Assembly: GCF_037094465.1 (NCBI RefSeq) | Contig: NZ_CP146609.1 | Span: 434,001 to 498,000 of the forward strand | Direction of reading: 5' to 3' | DNA: 64,000 nucleotides | Source of the DNA: Pseudodesulfovibrio sp. 5S69 | Lineage (GTDB): Bacteria > Desulfobacterota > Desulfovibrionia > Desulfovibrionales > Desulfovibrionaceae | Part shown: positions 19,782 to 64,000 of the stretch, in pieces | How positions within the stretch are numbered: position 1 is the stretch's first letter | How the letters are laid out: every line of letters begins with the position of its first letter | Made by a program: the position numbers and the translations under genes | Notes under the pieces: model-generated | What the model saw: only the letters and a program-made list of their open reading frames with translations | Told to the model about the DNA's origin: nothing | The model's database searches: none

Positions 19782-20276
19782 ATGGCGAGCGATTTCGTGA
19801 AGGACCGGCTGCTGGAGCTGTTCGGGGATAATAAATTTCTGTGCGCCGAGTCCGTGGTCCAGGTCATTGCCGAGGCGGGCGGGCGCGAGAGCCGGGACGC
19901 GGTCCGCGCGGCCACGGGCTTTTGCAGCGGCCTGTCGCGGACCTGCGGCCAGTGCGGGGCCGTGTCCGGCGCGGTCATGGGCATCGGCCTGTACGCCGGG
20001 CGGAGCAAGGCCGGGGAGGACCACGAGGCGTGTTACGCCCTGGTCCAGGAACTGCTGGACCGCTTCGACGGCCAATACGGGTCCATCAACTGCTTCGAAC
20101 TGATCCAGTGCGATTTCACCGACCCGGACGACAAGGCGCGCTACCGCCGGGACAACCTGCGCCGCGACTGCTACCGCATGGCCGTGTTCGCCGCCGAGAC
20201 CGCCCTTTCCATTCTCCGGGAACACGGCTACCTTCCGGATGAGGCGGGCCGGGACAAGTCCGGTCTCGCTTCGTAA
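19782..20276 (+). CDS. C_GCAxxG_C_C family redox-like protein
   Basis: The 164-residue protein shows the family cysteine pattern: FCSGLSRTCGQCGAVSGAVMG at about residues 47-67, with a second half containing CFELIQCDF and RRDCYRMAV. The family is common in anaerobes and probably binds a metal cluster or acts in redox, but its function is not established. It starts directly after the methyltransferase stop. The fourth family position reads Val in CGAVSG. A 114-base gap separates it from the split Rad50 locus. Confidence 0.85.
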   Translation: MASDFVKDRLLELFGDNKFLCAESVVQVIAEAGGRESRDAVRAATGFCSGLSRTCGQCGAVSGAVMGIGLYAGRSKAGEDHEACYALVQELLDRFDGQYGSINCFELIQCDFTDPDDKARYRRDNLRRDCYRMAVFAAETALSILREHGYLPDEAGRDKSGLAS

Positions 20277-20390: not shown

Positions 20391-21749
20391 ATGATTACTA
20401 AAATCATTATCGATAACTTCATGGCGCACGAGCACACCGAGCTTGCGCTCGGCCCTGGCGTGACCATCCTGACCGGCTCCAACAACACCGGCAAGTCCGC
20501 CGTGGTCGAGGCCCTGCGTTGCCTGGCCACCAACCCGGCGCGCAGCCCGAACCCGGCCCTGTACATCCGCCACGGGGCCAAGGAGGCGCGCGTGGAGGTG
20601 GAGGTGGACGACGGCACCCGCGTGGCCTGGGTGCGCACCAAACGGTGGGCCAAATACGAAGTCTGGGCACCGGGCGCCGAGGAGCCCGAGGAGTACCACA
20701 AGCTCCAGGGCAGGGTGCCCGAGGACGTGGCCAAGATCCTGCGCCTGGACCAGGTGGAGCTTGAAACGCGCAAGGACTCCGTGGACGTGCACCTGGGCAA
20801 CCAGCGCGATCCGGTCTTCCTGCTCAACCAGCCCGATTCGGTCATGGCCGAATTTTTCGCCGCGTCCACCGAGTCCGCCCACCTGCTGGCCATGCAGAAC
20901 GCCCTCAAGATACGCGTACGCGACGCCAAGCGCGAGGAGCGCGGCCTGGACGAGCAGGCCGGCCGCATCGGCTCGGACCTGGACCGCCTCGTCCCGCTGC
21001 CGGACATCACTCTGCGCATGGACGAGGCCGAGAACCTGGAGCGCGCCGCCACCGCATTGGAACAGGCCATCCCGGCCCTGGAAGCGGGATTGGCGGAGCA
21101 TCGCACCCTGATCGCCGCCCTCGATCGCGAGCGGGCCGCGAGCGCGGTCCTGGAGGCGATCCAACCTCCCCCGTCGGTCCAGGACGTGGACCGGCTCAAG
21201 CAGTACATCGCGTCCATGGGCACGGTCTCGGCCCAGCGCGACCGGGCGACCCGCACCGCCGGCGCTCTGGCCGGGCTCGACACCCCGCCCGAAGCGGCGG
21301 ACACCGGCCCCCTGCGCCATCTCCTGCGCGACCTGGCCCTGACCGGGGCGACCCTGCACCGGGCCTCGATCCATCAGACGGCCCTGGCCGGGCTGACCAC
21401 CCCCCCGGACCGGGAGGACACCGCGCGGCTGGCCGGGATGGTGGACGAACTGTACGTCCTGCGCACCCGCAACAAGCGGCTGACCCGCCTGGAAGCGGCC
21501 TTGGGGAAGATTGCGGAACCGCCCGTGCCCGTCCCCCTGGTCGGCCTGGGCGGCACGGTCACTGAACTGGCCGGATTAACGAATAAAATTTCTGCGCGCC
21601 GGGCCGAGCTGGACGGCCTGGAGACGGACTTGCGGTCCGTTGTGGTCGCCATGGACGAGCGCATCCGGGCCGTCGGCTGCTGCCCGGTCTGCGGCGGCGA
21701 CCTGACCACCGACTCCTTCCTGGACCACGGGTGCGGACATGACACTTGA
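20391..21749 (+). CDS. N-terminal half of a split Rad50/SbcC-like ATPase, with zinc-hook CxxC at its end
   Basis: The 452-residue protein starts with the Rad50/SMC head (ITKIIIDNFMAHEHTELAL). Walker A GSNNTGKS is at 29-36 and a Q-loop-like FLLNQPDS at 143-150, followed by a helical arm. It ends CPVCGGDL (Cys431, Cys434) 18 residues before the C-terminus, where Rad50 has its zinc hook. No Walker B or signature motif is present; these lie in the protein encoded at 23012-23677. The arm contains four repeats of about 39-40 residues, each opened by a Pro-Pro pair (about 259, 299, 338 and 377). The stop overlaps the next gene by 11 bases. Likely role: DNA-end processing or repair, or phage defence. 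Confidence 0.85.
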   Translation: MITKIIIDNFMAHEHTELALGPGVTILTGSNNTGKSAVVEALRCLATNPARSPNPALYIRHGAKEARVEVEVDDGTRVAWVRTKRWAKYEVWAPGAEEPEEYHKLQGRVPEDVAKILRLDQVELETRKDSVDVHLGNQRDPVFLLNQPDSVMAEFFAASTESAHLLAMQNALKIRVRDAKREERGLDEQAGRIGSDLDRLVPLPDITLRMDEAENLERAATALEQAIPALEAGLAEHRTLIAALDRERAASAVLEAIQPPPSVQDVDRLKQYIASMGTVSAQRDRATRTAGALAGLDTPPEAADTGPLRHLLRDLALTGATLHRASIHQTALAGLTTPPDREDTARLAGMVDELYVLRTRNKRLTRLEAALGKIAEPPVPVPLVGLGGTVTELAGLTNKISARRAELDGLETDLRSVVVAMDERIRAVGCCPVCGGDLTTDSFLDHGCGHDT

Positions 21750-22698
21750 GCATATCAAGGCGAACGGCCTGTTCCTGGTGGCCGACCCGCACCTGGCCGA
21801 CCATCCGCCGGGCCAGCGGCTGGAGGGGTATCTGGACCAGATCATGGCCAAGCTCGCCGCCTGCCTTGCCCGGGCCGACGAACTCGGCATGGCCCTCGTC
21901 CTGCTCGGCGACCTCTTCCACTGGCCGCGCGACAACTCCAACCGCATGCTCGTGGAACTCATCCGCCTGTTCGGCGGCCGCACCGGCGATCAAACCGTGT
22001 TTGTGCTGGTGGGCAACCACGACAAGTACCAGTCGCGCTTCACGGACGACGTGTCCCTGGCCGTGCTCGAAACCGCGGGCGCGGTCCGGCTGATGAAGGA
22101 ACTCGGCCCGCAGTTCGTCCTGGACACCCCGGACGGCGCGGTCCTGGTCGGGGCCAGCCCGGACGGCGCGCCCCTGCCCAAGGCCTACGAGCACGAAGAG
22201 GGCGACCCGGACACCGTGGTCTGGCTGACCCATCACAACATCCGCTTCCCGGAGTTCATCGACAAGGCCTACTCCATCAAGGAACTGCCGGGCATCGACT
22301 GGGTCGTCAACGGCCACATCCACCGGCCCCAGCCCACGGTGACCAAGGGCGGGACCACCTGGGCCAACCCCGGCAACATTACCCGCCTGACCTTCACCCG
22401 GCGGTCCATGGTCCGCGAACCCGCAGCCGCCGTCTGGACGCCCGGCTGCACGGAGCTGGAACCATGGGTGGTCCCGTACCTGCCCTTCGACCAGGTCTTC
22501 CCGGACCAAGACCTGCCCCCCGAGGAGCAGGAGGCCGAGGGCGAATCGAATTTCATCAAGGGGCTGGAACGGCTGGCCTGGCAACGTACCCACGAGGGCA
22601 CGGGCCTGAAGCAGTTTCTGACCGAAAACCTGAGCACCGAAACCCCGGAAGGCAAGCTCATCTGGGAACTCTACGAGGAGGTCGTCAACGGTGAATAG
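21739..22698 (+). CDS. Mre11/SbcD-like metallophosphoesterase
   Basis: The 319-residue protein has the full set of calcineurin-like phosphoesterase motifs: DPHLAD (Asp16, His18), GDLFHW (Asp58), GNHD (93-95), the LTHHN motif (His165) and NGHIHRPQ (His193, His195). This is the Mre11/SbcD arrangement of a dinuclear-metal nuclease. A C-terminal region of about 100 residues beyond the catalytic core (KGLERLAWQRT and WELYEEVV) may bind the Rad50 arm. It overlaps the upstream ATPase half by 11 bases and the downstream coiled-coil gene by 8 bases, so all are translationally coupled. Confidence 0.87.
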   Translation: MTLEHIKANGLFLVADPHLADHPPGQRLEGYLDQIMAKLAACLARADELGMALVLLGDLFHWPRDNSNRMLVELIRLFGGRTGDQTVFVLVGNHDKYQSRFTDDVSLAVLETAGAVRLMKELGPQFVLDTPDGAVLVGASPDGAPLPKAYEHEEGDPDTVVWLTHHNIRFPEFIDKAYSIKELPGIDWVVNGHIHRPQPTVTKGGTTWANPGNITRLTFTRRSMVREPAAAVWTPGCTELEPWVVPYLPFDQVFPDQDLPPEEQEAEGESNFIKGLERLAWQRTHEGTGLKQFLTENLSTETPEGKLIWELYEEVVNGE

Positions 22699-23011
22699 CA
22701 ACCCCAACCAAACAGGGACAACCAGGGATTCCCAGGTGGAACAGGAACTTAACACCCTGCGCCGCCAGTATGAGCAGTTGCGCGACCGCAAGGTGCGCAC
22801 CGAAGAGGCCGTGGCCCAACTCTCCCACCAGTTGGAGACCCTGAAGCAACAGGCCGAGGCCGAGTACGGGACCAGCGACCTCAAGGAACTGCAACAGCTG
22901 CTTGAAGAGAAACGCAAGCAAAACGAAGAGGTTGTCGCCAAGTACCGCGAACACATCCAAGAGGTGCAGGCCGACCTCGCCCAGGTGGAAAACGCGGTGG
23001 AGGACGACTAG
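22691..23011 (+). CDS. Small coiled-coil protein of the split Rad50 operon
   Basis: The 106-residue protein starts at GTG 22691, within the end of the phosphoesterase gene. Residues 15-100 form one long predicted coiled coil with heptad-spaced Leu and Val (LNTLRRQYEQLRDRKV, VAQLSHQLETLKQQAE, LKELQQLLEEKRKQNEE). It has no enzyme motif. Because the C-terminal ATPase half carries only a short arm, this protein could supply the missing return strand of the Rad50 coiled coil. That role is inferred from position and shape only. The next gene begins immediately after its stop. Confidence 0.75.
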   Translation: MNSNPNQTGTTRDSQVEQELNTLRRQYEQLRDRKVRTEEAVAQLSHQLETLKQQAEAEYGTSDLKELQQLLEEKRKQNEEVVAKYREHIQEVQADLAQVENAVEDD

Positions 23012-23677
23012 GTGCCCGTGTCCACGGACCTCAGCGAACTGCGCCGAGCCCGCCGGGAGGCCGAGGGACGTCTGCACCGGCTGTCCGCCCTGGGCGAGCA
23101 GTGGCACGCCGAGCACGGCCGCGTGCGCCGCAAGCTCGCCGAGATGCGCGAGTTCCTGGACCTCGCCCCCAAGGCGCGCGACACGCTGGAGGAGCTGTCC
23201 ACCGCCCTGTTCGGCCGCATCCTCGACGAGGTGGAGGCCAACCTGACCCACGCCATCCGCGAGATTCTGGGCCAGGACCGGGTGGTGGTCACCGAACGCG
23301 AGGTCAAGAACAACCGCCTCCAGATCCATTTCCTGATCCGCAACCAGGGGCGCGAAGACGAGATCGAGGACATCATGTCCGGCCAGGGCGGCTCGGTCTG
23401 CAACATCCTGTCCGTGGGCCTGCGGCTCATCGCCCTGTCCCAACTGCCCGAGGTCTCTCACCGGCCGTTCCTGGTGCTCGACGAGCAGGACTGCTGGCTC
23501 AAGCCCGGCCTGATCCCCAAGTTCATGAAGCTGATCCAGGAGATCGCCACCCGGCTGGAACTCCAGCTCCTGGTCATCAGCCACCACCCGCTCGACCTCT
23601 TCGCCGGGTCGGCCGACCGCATCTTCGAGCTGACCCCGGACCGCGAGGCCGGAGCCGTGGTCAAGCAAGTGAAGTGA
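23012..23677 (+). CDS. C-terminal half of a split Rad50/SbcC-like ATPase
   Basis: The 221-residue protein begins at GTG directly after the previous stop. Residues 5-70 form a short coiled-coil arm. The ABC-signature-like segment SGQGGSVCNILSVGLRL is at 123-139, Walker B plus catalytic Glu FLVLDEQD at 153-160, and the H-loop VISHH at 188-192. Walker A is absent and lies in the protein encoded at 20391-21749. The two halves would assemble into one Rad50-type head. The signature differs from the usual LSGGE. No fifth gene follows on this strand. Confidence 0.83.
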   Translation: MPVSTDLSELRRARREAEGRLHRLSALGEQWHAEHGRVRRKLAEMREFLDLAPKARDTLEELSTALFGRILDEVEANLTHAIREILGQDRVVVTEREVKNNRLQIHFLIRNQGREDEIEDIMSGQGGSVCNILSVGLRLIALSQLPEVSHRPFLVLDEQDCWLKPGLIPKFMKLIQEIATRLELQLLVISHHPLDLFAGSADRIFELTPDREAGAVVKQVK

Positions 23678-59092: not shown

Positions 59093-60043
59093 TCAGTTGT
59101 TTTTCAGGAATTCCTCGAAATAGGCGATCGTCTTGACCAACCCGTCGCGCAGGGCGACCTTCGGCTCCCAGTCCAGGGTCTCTTTGGCCAGGGATATGTC
59201 CGGCTTGCGCTGGGTCGGATCGTCCACGGGCAGGTCCTGAAACACGATCCTGGACTTGGAGTTGACCAGATCGAGGACGGTTTCGGCCAGTTCCAGGATG
59301 GTGAATTCACTGGGGTTGCCCAGGTTCATGGGGCCTGTGAAGTCATCCGGCGTCCGTTCCATGAACCGGACGAAGGCCTCGATCAGGTCGTCCACATAGC
59401 AGAAGCTGCGGGTCTGCTCCCCCTTGCCGTAGACCGTGATATCCTCGCCGCGCAGGGCCTGGACCACGAAGTTGGAGACGACCCGGCCGTCGTCCAGGGC
59501 CATGTGGGGGCCGTAGGTATTGAAGAGGCGGGCCACCTTGATGCGCAGGCCATGCTGGCGGCGGTAATCGAAGAACAGGGTCTCGGCGCAACGCTTGCCC
59601 TCGTCGTAGCAGGCGCGCGGTCCGATGGGATTGACGTGCCCCCAGTAGGATTCCGGCTGGGGATGGACGGCGGGGTTGCCGTAAATCTCGCTGGTCGAGG
59701 CCTGGAATATCTTGGCTCCGGTGCGCTTGGCCAGGCCGAGCATGTTGATGGCACCGTGCACGCTGGTCTTGGTGGTCTGCACCGGGTCGTGCTGGTAGTG
59801 GATGGGCGAGGCCGGGCAGGCCAGATTGTAGATCTCATCCACCTCCACATACAGGGGGAAGCAGATGTCGTGACGGAGGACCTCGAAATAGGGATTGTCC
59901 ATCAGGTGGAGGATGTTGCTCTTCTTCCCGGTGAAGTAATTGTCCACACAGAGGACGTTCCGCCCCATGTCGAGCAGCCGTTCGCAAAGGTGCGAGCCGA
60001 GAAAGCCGGAGCCGCCGGTGACGAGGACACTCTTTTTCTTCAT
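59093..60043 (-). CDS. UDP-glucuronate decarboxylase-like SDR epimerase
   Basis: The 316-residue SDR enzyme starts [19 protein letters not shown] and has the catalytic Tyr-Lys in [31 protein letters not shown] and [13 protein letters not shown] are diagnostic for UDP-xylose synthase (Uxs). It would convert UDP-glucuronate to UDP-xylose for surface glycan. ATG 60043 is preferred because MKKKSVLV opens the family; an upstream ATG adds 12 unlike residues. It is convergent with the GT-C-like gene and next to the small island. Confidence 0.9.
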
Positions 60044-60136
60044 GCGGTGACTTCTTACAGTAAAACAGCGTGCTGTCAACTACCGGGCCCCGCGACTTGC
60101 CGTTCGCGGACCGGGCGAAATTGAAGTGCCCCCACT

Positions 60137-60532
60137 TCCGACCTGGATTTCGAGAATGGCAAGATCAGGCCGTGGGCTCGCAAGCGGGAGGGCGGTTCTC
60201 TGGAGTACGATTGGCTTCCGCTGACCAATCGACTGCGGCAAGCGCTTTCAGAACACCATAAACAGCGGATTGGTGAACATGTCTCCAGCACCGAGGACGG
60301 CTCCCCGTATAAGTGGCGACAGCACCTCATGAAAATCCTGTGCAAGCGGGCGGGAGTGAAGCACTTCACGTTTCACGGAATCCGACACCTGACGGCCTCC
60401 ATCCTTGCGCAAGAGGGGGTGGACATCCCGACCATTCAAGCCATCCTGCGGCACAAGAACTCGATGACTACGACTCGATATATACACCGGCTGGGCATCA
60501 CCAAAAATGTCTTGGAGGACGTGTTCGGTTAG
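60137..60532 (+). pseudogene. 5'-truncated tyrosine recombinase (phage integrase) remnant
   Basis: The frame carries the C-terminal half of an integrase: SDLDFENGKIRPW, a helix-rich middle, FHGIRHLTASILAQEGVDI (catalytic His and Arg), LRHKNSMTTTRYIHR (His and nucleophile Tyr), and stop TAG 60530-60532. The N-terminal DNA-binding half and the first catalytic Arg are missing, and no ribosome site precedes the frame. Only a short 67-residue frame from ATG 60329 remains intact. It marks an old insertion next to tRNA-Glu. Composition is less GC-rich than the flanking uxs-like gene. Confidence 0.85.
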
Positions 60533-60646
60533 CTGGCAACAGACCCCGCAAGTGGACGTCTTCAGGCTTTCCCTTCGTCCATGTGTACTTGTTGAGAATA
60601 GGCGCCTGTACTATGCTCGGCCAACCAATCTCAAAAAGGACCTATA

Positions 60647-61678
60647 ATGAGTGATACTAAAGCCGCACCAGACTCTCGAATAGAGATATTCAACGCCCCG
60701 GACGGCGGAGTTTCCGTCAAAGTTCACGTGGAAGACCAGACAGTCTGGTTGACGCAGCGATCCATGGCCGAATTGTACCAAACCACCACGCAAAACATCG
60801 GAATGCATCTTAAATCGGTTTATGAGGAAGGGGAGCTGGATGAGCAAGCAACTTGTAAGGAATACTTACAAGTTCGAAGTGAGGGGAATCGCGAAATAAA
60901 TCGCAATTTGAAGCACTACAGCCTGGATGCCATCATTGCTGTGGGATACCGAGTTCGCTCTGCCGTGGGTGTCCAATTTCGGCGATGGGCCACCGAACGG
61001 TTGCGGGAGTACATGGTCAAGGGCTTCACCATGGACGACGAGCGGCTGAAGAATCCCGGCGGCTGGGATTACTTCGATGAACTGCTTGAGCGCATCCGGA
61101 CGATCCGGGCCTCGGAGAAGCGGTTTTACCAGAAGGTCAAAGACCTGTTTTCTCAGACCAGTGCCGATTATGACGGCAAGTCGGAAACAGCCCAGATGTT
61201 CTTTAAGACCATCCAAAACAAGATGCTTTTTGCCACTACGGGCAAGACTGCCGCAGAAATTGTGGTGGAACGCGCAGACGCGGCCCTGCCCAACATGGGG
61301 CTAACCAGCTTCAAAGGGGATGTGGTCCGCAAGGGTGACGTAATGACCTCCAAAAACTACCTCCAACAAGACGAACTCACCAAGCTGGACCGCCTTGTGG
61401 TCATGTTCCTCGACTACGCCGAGGATCGCGCCGAGCAGAGACAGCGCATCACTATGGACGAATGGATTGAAATGACTGACCGCTTCTTGACCTTTAACGA
61501 GCGCGACGTCCTCACCAATGCCGGGAAGGTCTCCCACAAGCAGGCTGAAAAGCATGCCCACGGTGAATACAAGACGTATGACGATGCTCGTAGGCGGCGT
61601 GAGTTGGAAGAGGCCGAAATCGAAGCCGAGCGGGACTTTGAGGAATTAGTGAAGGGGATTGAGCGGGGAAAAGCTTAA
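60647..61678 (+). CDS. RhuM-family (virulence-associated) protein
   Basis: The 343-residue protein follows an AAGGACC ribosome site. Its N-terminal part matches the RhuM family: VKVHVEDQTVWLTQRSMAEL, QTTTQNIGMHLKSVYEEGEL, REINRNLKHYSLDAIIAVGYR and VQFRRWATERLREYMVKG. RhuM proteins occur in genomic islands, often with toxin-like or mobile genes; their action is unknown. The C-terminal part is helical and charged (ELEEAEIEAERDFEELVKG). It is AT-richer than the core genes and sits behind the integrase remnant, so it came with the island. Confidence 0.9.
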   Translation: MSDTKAAPDSRIEIFNAPDGGVSVKVHVEDQTVWLTQRSMAELYQTTTQNIGMHLKSVYEEGELDEQATCKEYLQVRSEGNREINRNLKHYSLDAIIAVGYRVRSAVGVQFRRWATERLREYMVKGFTMDDERLKNPGGWDYFDELLERIRTIRASEKRFYQKVKDLFSQTSADYDGKSETAQMFFKTIQNKMLFATTGKTAAEIVVERADAALPNMGLTSFKGDVVRKGDVMTSKNYLQQDELTKLDRLVVMFLDYAEDRAEQRQRITMDEWIEMTDRFLTFNERDVLTNAGKVSHKQAEKHAHGEYKTYDDARRRRELEEAEIEAERDFEELVKGIERGKA

Positions 61679-61763
61679 TTGGGAAGGGGTTCCGAATGAT
61701 AGCCACAATCAAAACCTGATCCATGGCTTGATATCGGTGTGAAATTTTTTTCACTAGCGAGGA

Positions 61764-62429
61764 ATGTCTATGCCTCCAATCGACAGAAAAGCTATGCGGG
61801 CTAGTCTGAGGTCAACCCATGTGCGTATGATGAAATGTTGGCTTACGACTAACCCCTTCCCGACAAACCCGATCGAATATCATGAGTCTGAATGGGCTGG
61901 GTGGATTGACCGTGTGAAAGGTGGTGCAGAAGCTGCATTAAATGCTATTCCCCAGCTCCCAGCGGGTTGCCCCCCAGATTATTATGCCGAAGAGATTGTA
62001 AGAGAACGTGAGCTATCTCGGATTATGCTCGCAGCTTTAACCGTCGGAATGTGGGCAAAGCTTGAAGACTTTTTGAGACGCTGCATTAGAGCGTGGAACT
62101 ATGATGCCCTCTCTCCAATTCAATACGATTGCCATAAGATAGTAGATTTCGTTAAGTGCTTTGACCAAGCTGTTGGCATAAAACTAGACGATCTCCCAAG
62201 ATATGAATATGCCAATGCCATTAGGGTCCTCGCGAACACATTTAAGCACAATAACGGACGCTATAAACCAGATTCCTTTCCGATAAATACCACAATTGCA
62301 AAACGATGGGGAATTGAGGAGCGCCAAAAGGTGGACTATGAAGGACTGCCTTTTGCCGATTTACTGCTTGATTGTGGAGCATTTTGTGGCGAGTTGTCGG
62401 AAAGAGTGCGTTCCAAATTGACTATTTGA
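61764..62429 (+). CDS. AT-rich island protein of unknown function, possible HEPN-like helical fold
   Basis: The 221-residue protein is strongly AT-rich in codon choice compared with the chromosome, which marks recent acquisition. It is mostly helical. The segment AIRVLANTFKHNNGRYKPDS, near residues 152-171, has an R...N..KH..G arrangement like that in some HEPN-type proteins, many of which are RNases in toxin or defence systems. The Arg-to-His spacing is longer than the classical motif, so this is only a hint. It follows the RhuM gene by 85 bases and ends about 100 bases before tRNA-Glu. Confidence 0.6.
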   Translation: MSMPPIDRKAMRASLRSTHVRMMKCWLTTNPFPTNPIEYHESEWAGWIDRVKGGAEAALNAIPQLPAGCPPDYYAEEIVRERELSRIMLAALTVGMWAKLEDFLRRCIRAWNYDALSPIQYDCHKIVDFVKCFDQAVGIKLDDLPRYEYANAIRVLANTFKHNNGRYKPDSFPINTTIAKRWGIEERQKVDYEGLPFADLLLDCGAFCGELSERVRSKLTI

Positions 62430-62464
62430 ACCAGAAGGTTCGTTCTCTGGGGTTTTTCGGCATC

Positions 62465-62486
62465 ATTTTACACGTAATTTTACACG
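62465..62486. repeat. Tandem ATTTTACACG direct repeats near tRNA-Glu
   Basis: ATTTTACACG occurs at 62465-62474 and again at 62477-62486, 12 bases apart. The spacing of about one helical turn and the position between the island and the tRNA resemble integrase arm-type binding sites. No matching tRNA-end duplicate was seen on the other side of the island. Confidence 0.4.
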
Positions 62487-62495
62487 CAAACAAAA

Positions 62496-62524
62496 ACGGG
62501 CTACAGCGATTTGCTGTAACCCGT
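62496..62524 (-). terminator. Intrinsic terminator of the tRNA-Lys/tRNA-Glu transcript
   Basis: On the minus strand, ACGGGTTACAGC and GCTGTAGCCCGT pair with one mismatch around a 5-base loop, then TTTTG. It begins 11 bases past the encoded CCA of tRNA-Glu, so it should end the tRNA operon. Confidence 0.8.
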
Positions 62525-62534
62525 TGATTTGTCT

Positions 62535-62610
62535 TGGCGTCCCCAAGGGGGTTTGAACCCCTGTTGCCGGCGTGAGAGGCCGGAGTCCTAGGCCACTAGA
62601 CGATGGGGAC
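62535..62610 (-). tRNA. tRNA-Glu (CTC anticodon)
   Basis: The minus strand folds as a full cloverleaf. The 7-bp acceptor stem is GTCCCCA/TGGGGAC. The anticodon stem is CCGGC/GCCGG with loop CTCTCAC, giving anticodon CTC. The T arm is GGGG-TTCAAAC-CCCC, the discriminator is G, and CCA is encoded (62537-62535). It lies six bases after tRNA-Lys and forms the edge of the integrase-remnant island. Confidence 0.97.
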
Positions 62611-62616
62611 GCATTC

Positions 62617-62692
62617 TGGTGGGTCGTACTGGGCTCGAACCAGTGACTCTCTGCTTAAAAGGCAGATACTCTACCAACTGAGTTAACGACCC
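62617..62692 (-). tRNA. tRNA-Lys (TTT anticodon)
   Basis: The minus strand has acceptor stem GGGTCGT/ACGACCC, D arm with AGTTGGTAGAGT, anticodon stem TCTGC/GCAGA with loop CTTTTAA (anticodon TTT), and T arm CTGGTTCGAGCCCAG. The discriminator is A and CCA is encoded (62619-62617). It precedes tRNA-Glu on one transcript. Confidence 0.97.
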
Positions 62693-62890
62693 ATGACCCG
62701 TCAGGGAAAGTATGAGTATCCATTTGGTATCCCGGTGTCAAGCATATTCTGCAACTTCCCGTTATGGCAAATTGTGCTTGCAACTGTTCGGAATGTCTGT
62801 AAAATTAAAGTTTTTCTTGCAAAATTATTCCGGTGTGTTATAGTCCCGCTCCCTGTCCGATATGGAATCCAAGCCACCAAGGAGCTACAT

Positions 62891-64000
62891 ATGACACGAA
62901 AAGACCGTACCGAGGGAATCTATTCCCGCCGCGAGGTGCTCGACGAGTCCGAGCGCAGGCAGTACTGCCAGTTGCAGTTAAAAGAGCTGCTTTCCTATGC
63001 CTACAGGTACTCCGAGGACGTCAAGAAGCGGTTCGACCGCGCCCAGTTCAACGTGGACAAGTTCCGCGTGCTCAACGACCTCAAGCATATCCCCATCATC
63101 AAGAAAAAGGAACTGATCTTTCTCCAGTCCATGGGCCCCCGCCTCGGCGGGCTGCTGACCAAGGACCTGGGCGAATTGCAACGCGTGTTCCTTTCCCCGG
63201 GCCCGATCTTCGACCCCGAAGACCGCTCCGAGGATTACTGGGGCTGGACCGAAGGCTTCTACGCCGCGGGCTTCCGCTCCGGCGACCTGGCCCAGATCAC
63301 CTTCAACTACCACCTGGCCCCGGCCGGGCTGATGTTCGAAGAGCCCCTGCGCAACCTGTCCTGCGCCGTGGTGCCCGCCGGTCCCGGCAACACCAACTCG
63401 CAGATCGAGATCATGCAGAAGCTGCGCGTCACCGGCTACGTGGGCACCCCCAGCTACCTCATGCACCTGGCCCAGAAGGCCGAGGAAGCGGGCCTGTCCC
63501 TGCGCAAGGACCTGTTCCTGGAAGTGGCCTTCGTCACCGGCGAAAAGTTCTCCGAGAAGATGCGCTCCACCCTGGAAAAGAAGTTCGACTGCATCATGCG
63601 CCAGGGCTACGGCACCGCGGACGTGGGCTGCATCGGCTACGAGTGCTTCCACAAGTCCGGCCTGCACCTGTCCAACCGCGCCTTTGTCGAGATCTGCCAC
63701 CCCGACACCGGCATCCCGCTCAAGGACGGCGAGGTCGGCGAGATCGTGGTCACCGCCTTCAACCGCACCTACCCGCTCATCCGCCTGGCCACCGGCGACC
63801 TCGGCTACCTGGACCGCACCCCGTGCGCCTGTGGCCGCACCTCCCCGCGCCTGGGCGGCATCGTCGGCCGCGTGGACACCACCGCCCGCATCAAGGGCAT
63901 GTTCGTGTACCCGCATCAGGTCGAGCAGGTCATGGCCCGGTTCGAAGAGGTCAAACGCTGGCAGATCGAAGTCACCAACCCCGGCGGCATCGACGAGATG
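62891..64000 (+). CDS. Phenylacetate-CoA ligase-like (PaaK-family) protein, 3' end outside window
   Basis: ATG 62891 follows AAGGAG, and the frame stays open for 370 codons to the window end. The fold is that of PaaK/adenylate-forming enzymes: ELLSYAYRYSEDVKKRFD at the start, VPAGPGNTNSQIEIMQKLRV, YVGTPSYLMHLAQKAEE, RQGYGTADVGCIGYEC, PLIRLATGDLGYL, CACGRTSPRLGGIVGRVD and the hinge KGMFVYPHQVEQVM. The usual Gly/Ser/Thr phosphate loop (SSGTTG) is absent; that position reads FLSPGPIFDPED. So it may be a divergent or non-ATP-using relative. It follows the tRNA pair on the other strand. Confidence 0.88.
   Translation, partial: MTRKDRTEGIYSRREVLDESERRQYCQLQLKELLSYAYRYSEDVKKRFDRAQFNVDKFRVLNDLKHIPIIKKKELIFLQSMGPRLGGLLTKDLGELQRVFLSPGPIFDPEDRSEDYWGWTEGFYAAGFRSGDLAQITFNYHLAPAGLMFEEPLRNLSCAVVPAGPGNTNSQIEIMQKLRVTGYVGTPSYLMHLAQKAEEAGLSLRKDLFLEVAFVTGEKFSEKMRSTLEKKFDCIMRQGYGTADVGCIGYECFHKSGLHLSNRAFVEICHPDTGIPLKDGEVGEIVVTAFNRTYPLIRLATGDLGYLDRTPCACGRTSPRLGGIVGRVDTTARIKGMFVYPHQVEQVMARFEEVKRWQIEVTNPGGIDEM

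Follow-up and report, generated by a model that had tools for sequence, protein, structure and literature searches.

A natural four-gene module in Pseudodesulfovibrio sp. 5S69 with a Rad50-type ATPase in two pieces and an Mre11-like phosphoesterase

The four genes and their products

The stretch of DNA considered here, the window, comprises 64,000 nucleotides of Pseudodesulfovibrio sp. 5S69 (contig NZ_CP146609.1, positions 434,001 to 498,000), and at its positions 20391-23677 lie four plus-strand genes, to which we gave the working names WA, PE, CC and WB. The evidence supports WA and WB as complementary parts of one Rad50/SMC-type ATPase head, PE encodes an Mre11/SbcD-like phosphoesterase, and CC a small coiled-coil protein. 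A preliminary description had placed four overlapping or abutting genes in this order, and all four open reading frames are found there: WA and PE overlap by 11 bases, PE and CC by 8, and CC abuts WB in one frame, with a single TAG between them. Their features are as follows.

20391..21749, plus strand: WA, N-terminal half of a Rad50/SMC-type ATPase, 452 amino acids (open reading frame, family and structure matches)
20475..20498, plus strand: Walker A motif GSNNTGKS, WA residues 29-36 (G29, N31, N32, G34, K35 and S36 invariant in 53 sequences)
20790..20807, plus strand: HLGNQR, WA residues 134-139, which we take to be the Q-loop (motif; H134 and Q138 invariant in 53 sequences)
20868..21674, plus strand: WA arm, residues 160-428 (predicted helices; length steps across loci)
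21681..21692, plus strand: zinc-hook type motif CPVC, WA residues 431-434 (hits to the hook chains of Rad50, 6zff and 1l8d)
21739..22698, plus strand: PE, Mre11/SbcD-like metallophosphoesterase, 319 amino acids (motifs DPH, GDLFH, GNHD, THHN and NGHIH)
22691..23011, plus strand: CC, small coiled-coil protein, 106 amino acids, GTG start with GAGGAGG upstream (YGTSD turn, residues 59-63)
23012..23677, plus strand: WB, C-terminal half of a Rad50/SMC-type head, 221 amino acids, GTG start (structure and sequence matches)
23030..23269, plus strand: N-terminal helix of WB, residues 7-86 (predicted structure)
23378..23395, plus strand: signature-type motif SGQGGS, WB residues 123-128 (motif, alignment)
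23468..23491, plus strand: Walker B motif FLVLDEQD, WB residues 153-160 (motif, alignment)
23576..23587, plus strand: ISHH, WB residues 189-192, presumably the H-loop (motif, alignment)

The motifs expected of an SMC/Rad50 head are all present once WA and WB are taken together, with Walker A and Q-loop in the former and signature, Walker B and H-loop in the latter. Domain libraries name WA as a P-loop half (AAA_15/AAA_23), with a weak match to Rad50_zn_hook (E 0.011), and PE as Metallophos, and they give weak matches only for WB and CC. WB is mostly annotated at source as a hypothetical protein, in some cases as a P-loop NTPase and in a few as 'DNA repair exonuclease SbcCD ATPase subunit'. It does carry signature, Walker B and H-loop, as had been described, with the refinement that the signature reads SGQGGS and not LSGGE, the textbook form; G124, G126, G127, D157, E158 and H191 are invariant in 53 aligned sequences. 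WA maps to residues 2-148 of P. furiosus Rad50 and WB to residues 738-882, the complementary chains of the crystal construct 1f2t/1f2u, and the predicted half-folds match complementary chains of both Rad50 and SMC heads. Because SMC heads score about equally, the fold alone cannot single out Rad50. The construct likewise presents the N- and C-terminal halves as two chains, a split which we take to be laboratory-made, whereas here the split is natural and WA retains arm and hook. In the window and in its relatives the two lobes come from two genes rather than from a single polypeptide. The earlier proposal that the split chains rebuild one head therefore holds for their complementarity in motifs, folds and matching Rad50 chains, while the physical reassembly is what we infer. 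On the predicted structure, the helix of WB residues 7-86 would put a stub of the descending arm on this head.

The Walker A half ends at CPVC, as first described, 18 residues before the C-terminus and with both GSNNTGKS and HLGNQR in place. Compared with the PDB by sequence, the end of WA is most similar to Rad50 hooks (E 0.007 and 0.016), and CxxC is present in 23/23 rows of the WA alignment and in 55 of the 57 WA proteins that have Walker A. From the sequence, the arm tip carries a CxxC of zinc-hook type and is predicted to bind zinc. The two remaining proteins (loci L107 and L132) are without CxxC in their last 90 residues, the hook being lost or the frame wrong. Beyond the hook, the tail FLDxGxxH (WA residues 443-450, window 21717-21740) is conserved in the genus, and its nearly invariant histidine could be an extra metal ligand.

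Between head and hook, the arm is predicted to consist of helices at residues 160-200, 203-256, 266-293, 306-333, 345-372 and 386-428. In the model, the middle helices of 28 residues are spaced 39-40 residues and broken at PP linkers (predicted TM-score 0.39; the per-residue confidence, pLDDT, is lower at the linkers). Arm lengths were compared in the window and 80 genome loci, from which 11 without WA and 15 without Walker A or CxxC in the available piece were removed (13 without Walker A, mostly cut pieces, and L107 and L132), leaving 55. Their Walker A-to-hook distances are 317, 348-365, 387-402, 430-441, 467-480 and 507-509 residues, and the gaps between these clusters are empty. The best-fitting period is 40.5 residues (R 0.76, n=55, related sequences; p at the lowest value that 2000 draws allow), or 39.0 (R 0.71) from the 30 unique values. 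A count of LxxPP motifs was rejected as the arm repeat unit; it follows arm length loosely (rho 0.55), and the length clusters were therefore used as evidence for arm units.

PE has all five phosphoesterase metal motifs, and the ten top-ranking entries in a PDB profile search (E 3e-9 to 2e-6) bear the names Mre11, SbcD or 'Exonuclease, putative'. Its description as an Mre11-type phosphoesterase with complete metal motifs is thus borne out, Mre11/SbcD being its nearest solved relatives.

CC is charged and helical-looking, with the conserved YGTSD turn between two helical stretches, and matches only general coiled coils in PDB. The preliminary description had called it a pure coiled-coil protein replacing the missing return arm of the ATPase. 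The helical, coiled-coil character is upheld, but from the sequence, with its conserved turn, CC is unlikely to form a single straight helix. Moreover, a return arm pairing with the ascending arm over its full length should follow that arm in length, and CC does not (rho -0.11, p 0.44, n=55; arm range 317-509 residues): the WA arm varies by increments of about 40 residues, which CC length does not track. The role of a whole return arm is therefore unsupported, and a constant partner for a single region is the likelier role of CC. The 55 loci include L085 (UBA4079), with a CC of 62 amino acids in a broken frame; PE and WB of this locus match piecewise in different frames, perhaps by assembly error. 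At two further loci, extra sequence of about 1.4 kb (L069, 991-2364) and about 0.9 kb (L081, 6102-6974) separates CC from WB.

Distribution in bacteria and viruses

WA was found in all 25 genomes of the genus, including that of the window, and in 0/16 others of the order, and no WA had an internal stop. The loci of 20 of the 24 relatives were read for synteny. All 20 have WA-PE-CC-WB in order, and all have upstream a methyltransferase-like homologue and homologues of genes which we take to be mutM and murJ. Directly upstream of the module in the window lies a gene for a C_GCAxxG_C_C redox-type protein (19782-20276), present at 16 of the 20 loci.

Beyond the genus, a WB profile scan of species genomes returned 104 relatives, and the top 80 were retained. 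By name these are from Desulfovibrionaceae, other Desulfobacterota and many Planctomycetota, with single bins labelled Bacillota, Clostridiales, Sumerlaeia and Parachlamydiaceae, although such names are not proof of origin. WA-PE-CC-WB stand in order at 69 of these 80 loci, 4 are truncated where their contigs stop, and 7 have WB alone (2 at contig ends). The conserved four-gene neighbourhoods that had been suggested as a check are thus present in several phyla. In a phylum sample, WB was detected in 14/297 genomes at E 1e-20. Across 55 loci, the distances of WA, PE, CC and WB are correlated with one another (0.83-0.94), to a degree that co-inheritance alone could yield.

WA was also sought in nine genomes, seven of them being those with WB alone. 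Two genomes named Pirellulaceae (G042 and G043) have full-length WA and WB on different contigs, the separate contig of G043 carrying WA-PE-CC and no WB, so that, as far as the drafts show, WB stands as a gene of its own in these two at least. G046 has a full-length WA whose contig ends before WB, G045 has an end fragment of WA, behind which PE and CC follow but no WB within the 5 kb covered, and G041, G044 and G047 gave short P-loop matches only. Across 74 loci, CC and WB occur in all three classes of relative frame (13, 22 and 39), and read-through from CC into WB is therefore not a general rule.

The module is also found in viruses. Microcystis phage Mvi-JY20 carries all four genes, arranged as in the window. 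In Bacillus phage vB_BboS-125, the order is WA, an AP2 gene, a 78-amino-acid protein where CC would be expected, then WB, one small gene and PE, with an annotated Holliday junction resolvase and a UvsW-type helicase a few genes beyond the module. The 78-amino-acid protein was missed by the CC profile and is equated with CC by position, size and 22% alignment identity. A viral scan with the WB of this phage gave 27 relatives, the query included, and by comparison with the query-phage proteins all 27 contigs have the order WA-CC-WB-PE. A viral scan with the WB profile gave 11 pattern matches and no relative, and tblastn of the window WB against phages gave no match. In the jumbo phage LR745208, WA, PE and WB are scattered over about 8 kb near RecA and PD-(D/E)XK genes, and no CC was recognised; beside them (L150, 13971-16210) are two open reading frames with TnpB-like C-terminal zinc motifs, assigned by eye. 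Microbacterium phage Magritte has WB, with no other module parts identified in the stretches read. As the same gene set recurs in distant bacteria and in phages, this unusual divided form of a universal repair machine is apparently real and of long standing.

An AP2-type gene sits between WA and CC in 7 of the 27 viral contigs, and because of this position one may speculate that the split originated in a phage through a mobile endonuclease. A ribonucleotide reductase split by a mobile endonuclease and still functional was reportedly described in phage Aeh1 by Friedrich et al. 2007; unlike that case, the window has no such mobile element.

The place of SbcCD and YhaNO

A separate complete sbcC, raised earlier as a counter-test, was sought in the genome of the window with TIGR00618, TIGR00619 (the curated SbcD model, by which PE is not matched either) and AAA_27, and none gave a hit at E 1e-3; the TIGR00618 cut-off is strict, being reached in 1/14 control genomes. 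WA itself matches AAA_27 partially, below the cut-off (E 0.0077). Besides WA, this genome has nine AAA_23 hits. The strongest one and the only one in a long frame were checked and are RecN-like (E 7e-110, under the cut-off) and UvrA; the remaining seven lie in frames of 243-608 amino acids.

The survey of the host family covered 149 genomes, in each of which the best 19 (AAA_27) and 4 (SbcC) first-look candidates were scored. A strong WB (E 1e-58 or better) is present in 55, or in 88 when matches to E 1e-3 are counted, the rest being partial; AAA_27 is found in 50 and SbcC at E 1e-10 in 35, and 20 genomes have neither WB nor a one-chain protein. Strong WB and AAA_27 never occur together (0 of 149). 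WB and SbcC meet in three genomes: G011, where SbcC is interrupted by an IS3-like element, and G089 and G177, where the hits are weak fragments. With these three set aside, 18 genera have WB, 25 a one-chain protein (YhaN or SbcC), none both and 1 neither (Fisher p 2e-11, kinship ignored); counting the three genera as both gives p 5e-8, again with kinship ignored. Outside the family the exclusion is not strict, since 4/20 module genomes give an SbcC match at E 1e-5, which is full-length in one case, and 5 of the nine genomes searched for WA have frames of 1220-1241 amino acids with N-terminal matches. In the host family, the best reading is that the split module takes the place of SbcCD/YhaNO.

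The proteins marked by AAA_27, which we presume to be YhaN/YhaO, fill this place in related genera, to judge from the mutual exclusion, but YhaN is one chain, in frames of mostly about 1000-1600 amino acids with a full AAA_27 domain. The broken SbcC of G011, a genome of the same genus that also has the split module, was considered as a second natural split and rejected, the canonical gene being disrupted by an IS3-like transposase pair, assigned by eye (L149, 3900-7813).

A proposed complex and its alternatives

Rad50 is described as one chain that folds back at its hook. The module shares with Rad50/SbcC and Mre11/SbcD, the MR complex, both head halves, the CxxC hook and an adjacent Mre11-type nuclease; it differs in that the ATPase is made of two polypeptides with a third small subunit, the chain ends at the hook, and the arm grows in steps of about 40 residues. 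We give a probability of roughly 85% to the reading that the module forms an SbcCD-type Mre11-Rad50 complex for DNA-end processing with its ATPase in two pieces. WA would supply the lobe with P-loop and Q-loop and the arm ending in the zinc hook, and WB the lobe with signature, Walker B and H-loop and a short descending helix, so that one WA and one WB would make one head. Two heads, linked through the WA hooks, would close over ATP, and this closure may gate the PE nuclease at DNA ends. CC would be an added subunit of constant size, probably padding a fixed coiled-coil part near head or hook. Gene content, order, motifs, half-folds and distribution are observed; from them we infer WA-WB assembly, nuclease activity with ATP gating and the role of CC. 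More tentatively, and at less than even odds, the module may represent an old, separate Mre11-Rad50 branch with WA-WB heterodimer heads, a one-way WA arm built of units of about 40 residues, two WA arms pairing together or folding on themselves, and CC as third subunit. The lobes being separate proteins, such a machine could have its heads dismantled or controlled through swapping of WB, an option closed to one-chain Rad50.

Altered architectures of the same machine are on record as Mre11/Rad50 fusions, among them Mimivirus R555, which are also virus-linked; two of them (from Anaerostipes and a Bacillus phage) are without one P-loop segment (PMC3175470). These are fusions, whereas the window holds a fission. 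The literature matches listed contain no natural split of Rad50/SbcC, which is weak evidence of absence, since most subscription papers and preprints lie outside them. A natural Rad50 cut in two, with a chain that ends at the hook and an arm that grows by units, would test which covalent links the machine needs. If the proposed complex is correct, the need for a return arm, the effect of arm length and the working of the lobes in trans become testable, and WB and the phage copies would gain a role.

The preliminary description had left the choice between DNA repair and phage defence. SMC-type complexes such as Wadjet and Lamassu act in defence (PMC10586767), and a Lamassu- or Gabija-like pair of ATPase and nuclease would find some support in the matches of WA to AriA, GajA and others, the longest being that to LmuB over residues 2-441 (E 7e-10), and of WB to mad3 (E 8e-7). 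However, most of the 25 WA matches shown span just the first 45-100 residues, PE is matched by no PADLOC model and no system was completed, every genome of the genus has the locus, with conserved synteny in those read, and viruses carry the module themselves, in one case near the annotated Holliday junction resolvase and helicase genes of vB_BboS-125. Defence is thus improbable.

It is likewise improbable that WA and WB act separately, as homodimers or with other partners, with PE standing alone. WB does lie away from WA in a few genomes, the five draft bins with a lone WB off contig ends having a full WA in two, a fragment in one and none in two, and the genes of LR745208 are scattered; but by motif each half has only half an ATP site, the four proteins have correlated distances (for which co-inheritance could suffice), and the genes are side by side in 69/80 loci. 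Misassembly, or decay of an ordinary SbcC gene to a pseudogene, would be another account of the split, which the single TAG between in-frame CC and WB might suggest; its probability is close to nil given the intact WA throughout the genus, the three relative frames, the separate contigs of G042 and G043, and the conservation of each half across several phyla.

As for the surroundings of the module, a promoter and terminator scan gave no candidate on the plus strand. At the far end of the window (60001-64000), the guanine-plus-cytosine content is 0.53-0.56, compared with 0.63-0.70 elsewhere.

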